Origin: Candidatus Eremiobacterota bacterium
GTDB lineage: Bacteria > Vulcanimicrobiota > CADAWZ01 > Ess09-12
Assembly (NCBI GenBank): GCA_031082125.1
Contig: JAVHLM010000003.1
Span: forward strand, 186,001-250,000
Length of the DNA: 64,000 nucleotides
Direction: 5' to 3'
In this document: positions 57,028-62,031 of the stretch, in pieces
How positions within the stretch are numbered: the first letter of the stretch is position 1
How the letters are laid out: each line of letters opens with the position of its first letter
The notes under the pieces: model-generated
Database searches by the model: none
What the model was told of the DNA's origin: nothing
Seen by the model: the letters and a program-made list of their open reading frames with translations, nothing else
Translations under genes and position numbers: made by a program

Positions 57028-57315
57028 ATGCCCTACAGACCATGTGTATACCGACAGTCCCAGCTGGGAATTTTTCAGTGCGAAAAGCATTATTATCAGC
57101 ACGCCCATCCCAGCATGTATGATGAGCTCTATGAGTTCTGCATCGCCAATGTCCCTGACCGGTTCTGTCCTCATATAGACTTCGGATTCAACCTTGAAGG
57201 CGAGCCCAAGATTTTCATCAACTGTACCCACACCTACAAGGCCAGGCCCGTGAGAAGCTTCAAGGAATGTGAGGACTGCGATTTCCCTGACAAGGAAGGC
57301 TCATCCCTCGGATAG
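57028..57315 (+). CDS. Small Cys/His-rich protein of unknown function
   Basis: 95 residues with seven Cys and five His (Cys6, 18, 38, 47, 66, 82, 85). GAAAGGAG precedes the ATG, which argues that it is real. Cys-x2-Cys in FKECEDCDF and the many His suggest metal binding, without a clear fold match. It stands between the zinc-ribbon protein and the FAD enzyme on the hpt transcript. Function unknown. Confidence 0.6.
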   Translation: MPYRPCVYRQSQLGIFQCEKHYYQHAHPSMYDELYEFCIANVPDRFCPHIDFGFNLEGEPKIFINCTHTYKARPVRSFKECEDCDFPDKEGSSLG

Positions 57316-58890: not shown

Positions 58891-60186
58891 ATGAAAAAAC
58901 CATCGGTATGCGTAATCGTAGGAGCACAATGGGGAGACGAGGGAAAAGGGAAGATAACCCATTACCTTGCAGACCATGCCCACCTTGTCGCACGGTTCGG
59001 CGGAGGGAACAACGCCGGGCACACCATAAGCTTCGGAGGAGAAAAATTCAAGCTCCACCACGTGCCGTCAGGGATTTTCTTCCAAGACAAGCTCTGTATC
59101 CTGGGCAATGGAATGGTCATCGATCCCCAGGTCCTCACTGAAGAGCTTGAAGGGCTGAGAAAACGGGGCATCGGAGGGGAGAACATCCGCATCTCCGACC
59201 GCGCCCATATCATCATGCCTTACCACCGTTATATTGACAGGAAGCAGGAAGAGACAAGGGGAAAACACATGCTGGGCACCACGGGGAGGGGCATCGGCCC
59301 TGCCTATACCGATAAGGTTGCCAGGTCGGGTATAAGGGCTTCTGATCTTCTTGACAGTGAGCTCTTCATGGAAAAAATCATCATCAACCTTAAGGAGAAA
59401 GAAGCGCTGCTTGAAGGAAGCGGTCTCACGGCAGAGGGAATCATTGCACAGTATGAGCCGTACATAGAAGCTATGAAGTCCTCCATTACCGACACCTCTC
59501 TCATTCTCTACGAGGCTATCAAGAAAGGGAAGAAAATATTGATGGAAGGCGCCCAGGGAGCCCTCCTGGACCTTGACTTCGGCACTTATCCCTTTATCAC
59601 TTCCTCAAATGCCATTGCCGGAAACGCCTCTGTGGGCGCTGGAATCCCCCCCTGGAGCATCTCGCAGGTCGTAGGCATCTCAAAGGCTTATACAACCCGC
59701 GTGGGGACGGGTCCCTTTCCCACCGAGCTGAATGATGATAACGGCGGGCACCTGCTGAAGGTGGGCGCCGAATACGGCACCACGACGGGAAGGGCACGTC
59801 GGTGCGGGTGGCTTGACGCGGTGATTCTCAGGTTCGCAGTGCGGATAAACGGCATCACGGAGCTGGCCCTTACCAAGCTCGATGTGCTCAGCGGAATAGA
59901 TCCTCTCAATATTGCCGTGGCATACCGGCACAGGGGTAAGCGCCTGGAGAACTTTCCCGCCGACATGAAGGTCCTCGCCGAATGTGAGCCCGAGTATATC
60001 CAGATGAAAGGATGGACCGGCGATATAAGCGGCGTCCGTGAGATCGCCGCGCTCCCCCAGGCAGCCCGTGATTACATGAAAAAGATCGAGGAACTGCTTG
60101 AAGTCCCCGTCACCATTGTATCGGTAGGAGCCGACAGGGATCAGACAATCGTAGCACCTTTCAGTCTGCTTTCTGTAAGTTCCTGA
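58891..60186 (+). CDS. purA: Adenylosuccinate synthetase
   Basis: Converts IMP, Asp and GTP to adenylosuccinate, the first AMP-specific step. 431 residues with VGAQWGDEGKGKITHYLAD (P-loop), ARFGGGNNAGHTI, GTTGRGIGPAYTDKVARSGIR, ILMEGAQGALLDLDFGTYPFITSSNA, and the GTP-site region KLDVLSG. Normal length. It is the last gene of the hpt string and its 3' end overlaps the convergent archaemetzincin-like gene by 26 bases. Confidence 0.97.
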   Translation: MKKPSVCVIVGAQWGDEGKGKITHYLADHAHLVARFGGGNNAGHTISFGGEKFKLHHVPSGIFFQDKLCILGNGMVIDPQVLTEELEGLRKRGIGGENIRISDRAHIIMPYHRYIDRKQEETRGKHMLGTTGRGIGPAYTDKVARSGIRASDLLDSELFMEKIIINLKEKEALLEGSGLTAEGIIAQYEPYIEAMKSSITDTSLILYEAIKKGKKILMEGAQGALLDLDFGTYPFITSSNAIAGNASVGAGIPPWSISQVVGISKAYTTRVGTGPFPTELNDDNGGHLLKVGAEYGTTTGRARRCGWLDAVILRFAVRINGITELALTKLDVLSGIDPLNIAVAYRHRGKRLENFPADMKVLAECEPEYIQMKGWTGDISGVREIAALPQAARDYMKKIEELLEVPVTIVSVGADRDQTIVAPFSLLSVSS

Positions 60187-60709
60187 GGATCCTGCTCATG
60201 GTTGCCTCGCAGTCCCTGCAGAAAAGAGAGCTTTTTCTGTCGGTGTCGTTCACGCTGTAGGAGAAATACATCACGCAGTCGCGGTGAAAGCAGTGCTTGA
60301 ATCCAAGGAGATGCCCCAGGGCATGGGATGCCTCCTTGAGGGTTCTCGAGAAAAGAAGGTTGGTATCATCGGGGCCTGTTGCAGGGGAAGGCAGGAACTC
60401 TGATATGGAAAGGATTCCCACCTTATCGGCCTGGCGGGAGTAATACATAAAGGCCGCCGTGTCATCATAGAGGTCAATGGCCGTGATGCCCAGACCAAAA
60501 ATCCCGTCATGGGGCAGACATTCCCTCAGTGTGTCACAAAGCCTGCTCACAAGGTATTTTCCCTTCGTTTCGTGGTAAGCCGCCAAGGGCACATCGAGAG
60601 GGCCAATGAGTGAGAACCGGAAGAGGAAGCGCTCCTCAAGGGCAGGGATGATGCCCGCCATAAGCCCCGCGTGAATGGTTCCGACCGTGATAAGATAAAC
60701 TGTTCCCAT
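60161..60709 (-). CDS. Archaemetzincin-like protein with altered catalytic motif
   Basis: 182 residues from the ATG at 60709 (an ATG at 60784 lies at the predicted transcription start, so it is unlikely). The C-terminal part fits archaemetzincin: HALGHLLGFKHC, then HRDCVMYFSYSVNDTDRKS and FCRDC, the family's second metal and Cys box. The catalytic motif should read HExxHxxGxxH; here the Glu codon is GCC (Ala), giving HALGH. All three zinc His remain. So metal may bind, but peptidase activity is unlikely. Divergent to the SCIFF-like peptide gene, with its own promoter. Confidence 0.82.
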   Translation of the reverse strand: MGTVYLITVGTIHAGLMAGIIPALEERFLFRFSLIGPLDVPLAAYHETKGKYLVSRLCDTLRECLPHDGIFGLGITAIDLYDDTAAFMYYSRQADKVGILSISEFLPSPATGPDDTNLLFSRTLKEASHALGHLLGFKHCFHRDCVMYFSYSVNDTDRKSSLFCRDCEATMSRILRNLQKAD

Positions 60710-60789
60710 GGTACCCACAGGGTGACAGGCTGCAGGAATTCGGCCCACCACCGTGAATATGATCGGGAAGAATGTTCCTGCCATTATTC

Positions 60790-60818: not shown

Positions 60819-60874
60819 GACTGCACCCTGGAGCGCGGGATTTCCATAGAAATATTGCATAAAGGAGCAAGGCC

Positions 60875-61036
60875 ATGAAATCAAAGGAAGAAAAACTGGA
60901 GCACATCACCATACTCGCCGAACCCTGGCCTCAGGAAGAGCTTACCGAGGAGTGCACGAAATGCGCCACCTCCTGCCAGTCGGCCTGCAAGACCTCGTGC
61001 ACCGTGGGAAACATTCCCTGTGAAAAGAGACGGTAG
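60875..61036 (+). CDS. SCIFF-like six-cysteine ranthipeptide precursor
   Basis: 53 residues, too short for usual gene calling. AAAGGAG precedes the ATG. The first 26 residues are charged and leader-like; the core has six Cys at 27, 30, 34, 38, 42, 49 (C-x2-C-x3-C-x3-C-x3-C-x6-C). The core string CQSACKTSCTV is the same as I remember for the SCIFF (six cysteines in forty-five residues) peptides of Clostridia, and the end NIPCE also matches. SCIFF peptides receive thioether links from a radical-SAM/SPASM enzyme. No such maturase is in this window, so it must lie elsewhere. Confidence 0.85.
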   Translation: MKSKEEKLEHITILAEPWPQEELTEECTKCATSCQSACKTSCTVGNIPCEKRR

Positions 61037-61041
61037 GACCC

Positions 61042-61536
61042 TCATTTGAAATCGTCCACGTCTTTCACATCAATATCATCCTTGAGCGGATCATCTCCCC
61101 CTGACGAGGAGCCCCCTCCTTGGGAGTCAACATAAACCGCCGCGGAAGAGGGCTCCCAGCGCACGGAGCACCCGAGAGCCTCTGACATGAACCTGAGTGG
61201 AACAAGGGTCCTCTCGTGATGGATGAAGGCTGGGATGGGCATGATTTTTGTTCTGCCGTTCACTTTGGCTTTTGTCGAGTTCACCACGATCACCACCTTG
61301 TGGTTTCCCCTTGCTGCCCTGACGGTGCCGGTGCTTTTCTCATAGGAGATTGCAGCCTTGAAGCGCTCAAGCACTCCCCGCAGCGGGACAAATATGGTGG
61401 CCTGGCTCATCATGGGGGGCACATCGGTCTTGATCTTTTTTCCATCGACGACAAGCTTGATATCCTGGCCTTCACACCGGGCAGCGGTAAATGCCAGGAG
61501 CAGGATTACAATTGCAACGAAGGGCCTGTAGTTCAT
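61042..61536 (-). CDS. Exported protein with copper amine oxidase N-terminal domain
   Basis: 164 residues from the ATG at 61536 (GGAGG 6 bases upstream). A signal peptide with a Cys after it (LLLAFTAARCEG), then one Cu_amine_oxidN1 domain (about 27-140): IKLVVDGKKIKTDVPPMM, IFVPLRGVLERFKA, and RTLVPLRFMSEALGCSVRWE. The domain is a surface-binding module in Firmicutes-like bacteria, not an oxidase. An acidic tail (DDPLKDDIDVKDVDDFK) follows. It ends 5 bases from the SCIFF-like gene, convergent. Confidence 0.85.
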   Translation of the reverse strand: MNYRPFVAIVILLLAFTAARCEGQDIKLVVDGKKIKTDVPPMMSQATIFVPLRGVLERFKAAISYEKSTGTVRAARGNHKVVIVVNSTKAKVNGRTKIMPIPAFIHHERTLVPLRFMSEALGCSVRWEPSSAAVYVDSQGGGSSSGGDDPLKDDIDVKDVDDFK

Positions 61537-61632
61537 CACTTGCCTCCTCTCACAGGGTGCTTATTTTATTATACCTCATTTTTTTCTCGTTCAAAAGGTG
61601 CCGGTTTCTCCATTGCCGCCACACCAAAAATA

Positions 61633-61731: not shown

Positions 61732-62031
61732 CTAGCCGGCCACTTCTAACTTGTCATAGCATTCACGGCAGTAAACAGGCTTTCCCTGGGTAGGCTTGAA
61801 TGGAACCTTTGTAGGTTTCTTGCAGGCCTCGCACACCACATCGATAAGTGGCTTGAATCCTTTCTGGCCGTGGTTTGTCTTGTTGTGTTTCCTCGATGCG
61901 CGGCATTGTGGACAGCGGACAGGTTCGTTCTCAAAACCCTTTTTCTCATAGAACTCCTGTTCACCGGCGGTAAAGGTAAACTCCTTGCCGCAATCCCGGC
62001 AGTTCAACATTTTGTCCTGAAATTCTGCCAA
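61732..62031 (-). CDS. Double zinc-ribbon protein
   Basis: 99 residues from a TTG at 62031, with AGGAGG 8 bases upstream. Two metal sites: NCRDCGKEF with CPQC (zf-trcl type) and VVCEACKKPTKVPFKPTQGKPVYCRECYD, a well-known CxxC-CxxC ribbon. Proteins with this layout are found next to translation or RNA genes in many candidate phyla; function unknown. It has its own promoter. Confidence 0.8.
   Translation of the reverse strand: MAEFQDKMLNCRDCGKEFTFTAGEQEFYEKKGFENEPVRCPQCRASRKHNKTNHGQKGFKPLIDVVCEACKKPTKVPFKPTQGKPVYCRECYDKLEVAG

Follow-up and report, generated by a model that had tools for sequence, protein, structure and literature searches.

SCIFF peptides have resisted functional assignment, and most of the data on them are clostridial and can be read as describing a clostridial or sporulation-linked trait. 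In the closest described systems, the ScfA/ScfB pairs CteA/CteB of Clostridium thermocellum and Tte1186a/Tte1186, a cysteine is joined to the γ carbon of a threonine and the peptide becomes 2 Da lighter (PMC8326336; PMC8172795). The PapA/PapB (freyrasin) system is described in the literature as having Cys-Asp motifs and S-Cβ links. A training-set study collected maturases by their proximity, within 500 bp, to SCIFF genes, with a maturase expected for each precursor (PMC5300114), and work on solventogenic clostridia has connected a SCIFF peptide with quorum sensing (Chen et al. 2020, as cited in PMC8102284). No report of SCIFF in the host lineage considered here was found in the literature searched.

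The window, the whole 64,000-nucleotide stretch analyzed here, comes from contig JAVHLM010000003.1 of a Candidatus Eremiobacterota bacterium (genome G000; 7.43 Mb, 69 contigs, 97.6% complete). A plus-strand frame at 60875–61036 encodes a 53-residue product, MKSKEEKLEHITILAEPWPQEELTEECTKCATSCQSACKTSCTVGNIPCEKRR, with cysteines at positions 27, 30, 34, 38, 42, and 49 (C-x2-C-x3-C-x3-C-x3-C-x6-C), and is preceded by the ribosome-binding site AAGGAG (60862–60867, plus strand), read from the sequence 7 nt before the ATG. The initial annotation had reported a 53-codon frame with a good ribosome site and this cysteine spacing, all confirmed on rereading the sequence, and had proposed a SCIFF-type precursor, a call upheld by both curated family models: the product scores 57.6 bits against NCBIfam TIGR03973 (cut-off 50, E 8.9e-16) and 56.4 bits against Pfam PF13165 (cut-off 27). 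As in ScfA, six cysteines lie within about 45 residues and the core contains CQSACKTSC, here as CQSACKTSCTV. The frame is the only SCIFF match over cut-off in the genome; a second copy was sought and rejected, all other genome-wide matches being sub-threshold. Family alignment divides the product into a lineage-specific leader (residues 1–26, 60875–60952, plus strand) and a six-cysteine core (residues 27–49, 60953–61021, plus strand). Unlike the leaders of ScfA-type precursors, that of the window lacks the clostridial MKHIKT...GG, and instead has PW and acidic residues as do its relatives in the order.

The frame is conserved in related genomes, being kept in all four others of the window's order (G001–G004). 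Comparison of the window with these gives pN of 0.14–0.16 and pS of 0.71–1.04, and the compared block of G001 and G002 differs at six synonymous and no non-synonymous positions. Judged from these substitution patterns, the precursor is under purifying selection, and the family scores mark it as a genuine SCIFF-family member. Scanning the surrounding sequence for promoters and terminators gave nothing above chance.

The precursor lies at a housekeeping locus. On its upstream side are a plus-strand gene (58891–60186) whose product we take to be adenylosuccinate synthetase and a minus-strand gene for an archaemetzincin-like protein (60161–60784; PF07998, 67 bits; NF033823, 102.6 bits, below cut-off) with HALGH for HELGH; on its downstream side is a minus-strand gene (61042–61539) for a protein with a Cu-amine-oxidase N-terminal domain (PF07833, 99.4 bits). 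These agree with the initial description of the neighbors as an archaemetzincin-like protein with a dead motif and a surface-domain protein. Further on, a 99-residue protein (61732–62031, minus strand) consists of a PF13451 treble-clef zinc finger and a second one of another kind, PF23477. The precursor locus of G012, another genome of the phylum, has an FAD protein, the adenylosuccinate synthetase, and the archaemetzincin in common with the window; the archaemetzincin orthologue beside SCIFF in G012 keeps HELGH, so the loss of the catalytic glutamate is lineage-specific. In G001–G004, the precursor has beside it a gene that is presumably hpt and one for a 95-residue conserved Cys-containing protein without a Pfam match, which in the window lies at 57028–57315 (plus strand). 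Members of this protein family (53–87% identity) are encoded in 28 of the 149 phylum genomes, many of them without SCIFF, and the protein was rejected as a SCIFF partner. On these gene orders, the precursor in the window's order is unlinked from the maturase, yet stably placed.

As the initial annotation had noted, no maturase is encoded within the window, since the only convincing match to the maturase model in the whole genome lies on another contig (G000:C2:324560–325630, minus strand; 391 bits, E 1.1e-116), with the next match far behind at 191 bits; the possibility of a maturase inside the window was rejected accordingly. The C2 protein, of about 457 residues with a likely start at MHKLDPGLF, has the SCIFF maturase family TIGR03974 as its best NCBIfam family (391.6 bits), ahead of the look-alike family not_ScfB (343.1 bits). 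It falls short of the equivalog cut-off of 425, and is thus a diverged form; the maturases of G010 and G013, from the same phylum, do pass. As with PapB, to whose related profile it scores 239 bits, the C2 enzyme is of the radical-SAM/SPASM ranthipeptide type, but the window's precursor has no Cys-Asp motif repeats of the PapA kind. The nearest solved protein to the C2 enzyme is CteB (PDB 5wgg, E 3e-91), which is also the top Foldseek match (TM 0.85, 452 alignment columns, N-terminal domain included) of an AlphaFold model with pLDDT 86.3, predicting a CteB fold. A 24-sequence maturase alignment shows no variation in the CX3CX2C radical-SAM motif (CNMHCSYC in the C2 enzyme) or in the SPASM cysteines. 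The N-terminal domain is predicted to comprise three strands and helices that align to CteB, with model positions 1–94, those of the recognition domain, giving no significant profile match; the similarity there shows in pairwise sequence comparison and in structure. About 20 other SPASM-like proteins were found in the genome by the maturase-model search; nine runner-up radical-SAM proteins were rejected as candidates, their best families being different, and the C2 protein is the only SPASM protein examined with the SCIFF maturase as its best NCBIfam family. The genome also holds a second RiPP-type system, His-Xaa-Ser, whose radical-SAM maturase HxsB (L010:865–2334, minus strand, on contig C22) scores 543 bits, well over cut-off. 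With a maturase homologue present and the frame conserved, the peptide call stands, and the claim that the precursor is a stand-alone orphan falls.

Unlike in the ScfA/ScfB systems, the C2 maturase lies directly before a same-strand gene for the pilus platform protein PilC (T2SSF, 203 bits). The same order is found in all five genomes where it is readable (G000, G001, G002, G003, and G010); the G004 contig ends just past the maturase. The gap between maturase and pilC is 103–270 nt in four genomes, and in G002 an apparent duplicated pilC start intervenes: at L048:6961–7311, a short broken copy of the start follows the maturase and precedes the full gene, a local duplication. The genes that come after pilC in G000–G002 carry weak pilin-type N-methylation motifs. 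G013, G008, and G011, which belong to other families of the phylum, have the precursor next to the maturase, the arrangement seen in most clostridia.

The clostridial order examined as a control has the maturase in 56 of 60 genomes. The precursor is directly upstream in 22 of the 30 loci read; in the other eight, it lies 61–96 kb away (five genomes) or on another contig (three). Adjacency, absent from these eight loci as from the window's genome, is therefore no strict feature of the family, and the separation of the two genes is not new. The unlinked clostridial pairs resemble that of the window's genome in the distance of the precursor from the maturase, but differ in having a full-scoring maturase, and no pilC homologue was seen near the maturase in any clostridial locus examined, within short flanks. 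One scan of contigs for relatives named only Bacillota, plus two distant SPASM proteins.

In the maturase tree, the genomes with unlinked genes, G010, G000, and G001–G004, form one clade (support 100/95), with a long-branch warning for the placement of G010 with the window's clade. The precursors of these six genomes have in common CTVGN(V/I)PCEK and a leader end without the GG that precedes the first cysteine of clostridial SCIFFs, and in the recognition domain of the maturases of the window's order the clostridial NSG is one residue shorter and reads CGG or RGG. Such matching changes, seen in alignments, are consistent with a paired leader and reader, of which they would be expected, and are no proof of one.

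Of 149 genomes from the phylum, which we take to be Eremiobacterota, ten have the SCIFF precursor and nine the maturase, each of the nine having the precursor too; the remaining precursor genome, G012, in which no maturase was found, is 62% complete, with SCIFF near a contig end. The maturase thus occurs in 9/10 SCIFF genomes and 0/139 others (Fisher p 1e-13, a value that ignores the kinship of the genomes and so overstates the evidence), and in the window's genome it is the below-cut-off homologue that accompanies the precursor. Heme-copper oxidase (PF00115) is absent from all ten SCIFF genomes and present in 127 of the 139 others; by family, it is missing in 7/7 SCIFF families and present in 8/9 others (p 0.0014). 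The lack of this one oxidase points to an anaerobic life of the SCIFF hosts of the phylum, although it is no proof of it. The window's genome has a BamA match over cut-off, as expected of a diderm envelope and in line with the initial description of the genome as diderm, and the host, lying outside Bacillota and lacking the oxidase, differs in these respects from those of ScfA/ScfB. Elsewhere in the phylum, one large family has six genera with photosynthetic reaction-centre genes, one of these genera being represented by a 3.5 Mb genome in a single contig, and in another family the genomes approach 8 Mb; both features fit Eremiobacterota, whose described members include Vulcanimicrobium, a 3.50 Mb phototroph (PMC9758169), and the Eudoremicrobiaceae, with 8 Mb genomes (PMC9259500).

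We consider it highly probable that the window encodes an ordinary SCIFF ranthipeptide precursor, matured in trans by the diverged enzyme encoded on C2. Because the two genes are unlinked, their pairing rests on co-occurrence, and the precursor could instead be a true orphan that stays unmodified or is the substrate of an unrelated enzyme, with the C2 protein acting on something else. The separation of the genes, the sub-cut-off score of the maturase, and the 20 or so other SPASM-like proteins would all suit such an arrangement, but it appears improbable in view of the nested distribution of precursor and maturase over the 149 genomes, the strictly conserved core, the homologues directly beside SCIFF in G013, G008, and G011, and the C2 enzyme being alone, among those examined, in having SCIFF maturase as its best family.

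Still less probable is a small zinc or iron-sulfur protein that binds a metal or redox cofactor without thioethers. Its six cysteines, the zinc-finger proteins nearby in the window, and its confinement to oxidase-less genomes are as such a protein might show, but strict co-occurrence with a SPASM maturase, and retention of CKTS where the fifth cysteine is dispensable (G008 and G011), argue against it. The clostridial character of the family and its patchy presence in the phylum (10/149) might suggest that the gene was acquired recently from clostridia by horizontal transfer and is now drifting without function; this is scarcely credible, being already contradicted by the purifying selection on the precursor, the synteny kept within the order and in G012, the long branches separating the maturase clade from Clostridia, and a G+C content of both loci like that of the genome.

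For maturation in trans by the C2 enzyme, we infer the thioether chemistry from the work on CteA/CteB and Tte1186. The N-terminal RiPP-recognition domain would bind the divergent leader (residues 1–26), and the cluster held by CNMHCSYC would abstract hydrogen from Thr40 or, with lower likelihood, from Thr43, while the thiol of Cys38 would be held by the open-coordinated auxiliary cluster of the SPASM domain; this thiol would then form a Cys-Thr γ-thioether with loss of 2 Da. The predicted donor Cys38 (60986–60988, plus strand) and the candidate acceptors Thr40 (60992–60994, plus strand) and Thr43 (61001–61003, plus strand) align with Cys32, Thr34, and Thr37 of CteA, and published work is divided over the equivalents of Thr40 and Thr43 (PMC8326336; PMC8172795). 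Among 29 distinct cores collected, Thr43 is replaced by glycine in four clostridial ones (CKTSCG) and the fifth cysteine by alanine in two from the phylum (CKTSAT, in G008 and G011), with Thr40 kept in each; its constancy is partly by construction, because the search pattern fixed CKT, although the cores from the phylum were retrieved with the family model, on which there is no such constraint. These core variants mildly favor Thr40 as the acceptor. The two five-cysteine variants (L041:852–1001 and L043:5963–6115), each from a different further family of the phylum, lie directly upstream of their maturases.

The linkage to pilC might be neutral. That in anaerobic bacteria of the Eremiobacterota type the maturase has joined a type IV pilus transcription unit, with the modified peptide serving pilus assembly, surface sensing, or linked signaling, seems to us rather unlikely; if true, it would give SCIFF a cell-surface role in a diderm. 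Our leading guess, tentatively held and with the chances somewhat against it, is a signaling role in anaerobic lineages, by analogy with that reported for solventogenic clostridia. As far as the papers searched show, the host lineage, the maturase-pilC linkage, and the variants bearing on the acceptor threonine are new. The natural variants CKTSAT and CKTSCG speak to the acceptor question, and an unlinked pair of precursor and maturase such as this one would be missed by cluster-based genome mining. Seven families of this diderm phylum have SCIFF and none of them has heme-copper oxidase, a distribution that speaks for a wider role of these peptides in anaerobes.
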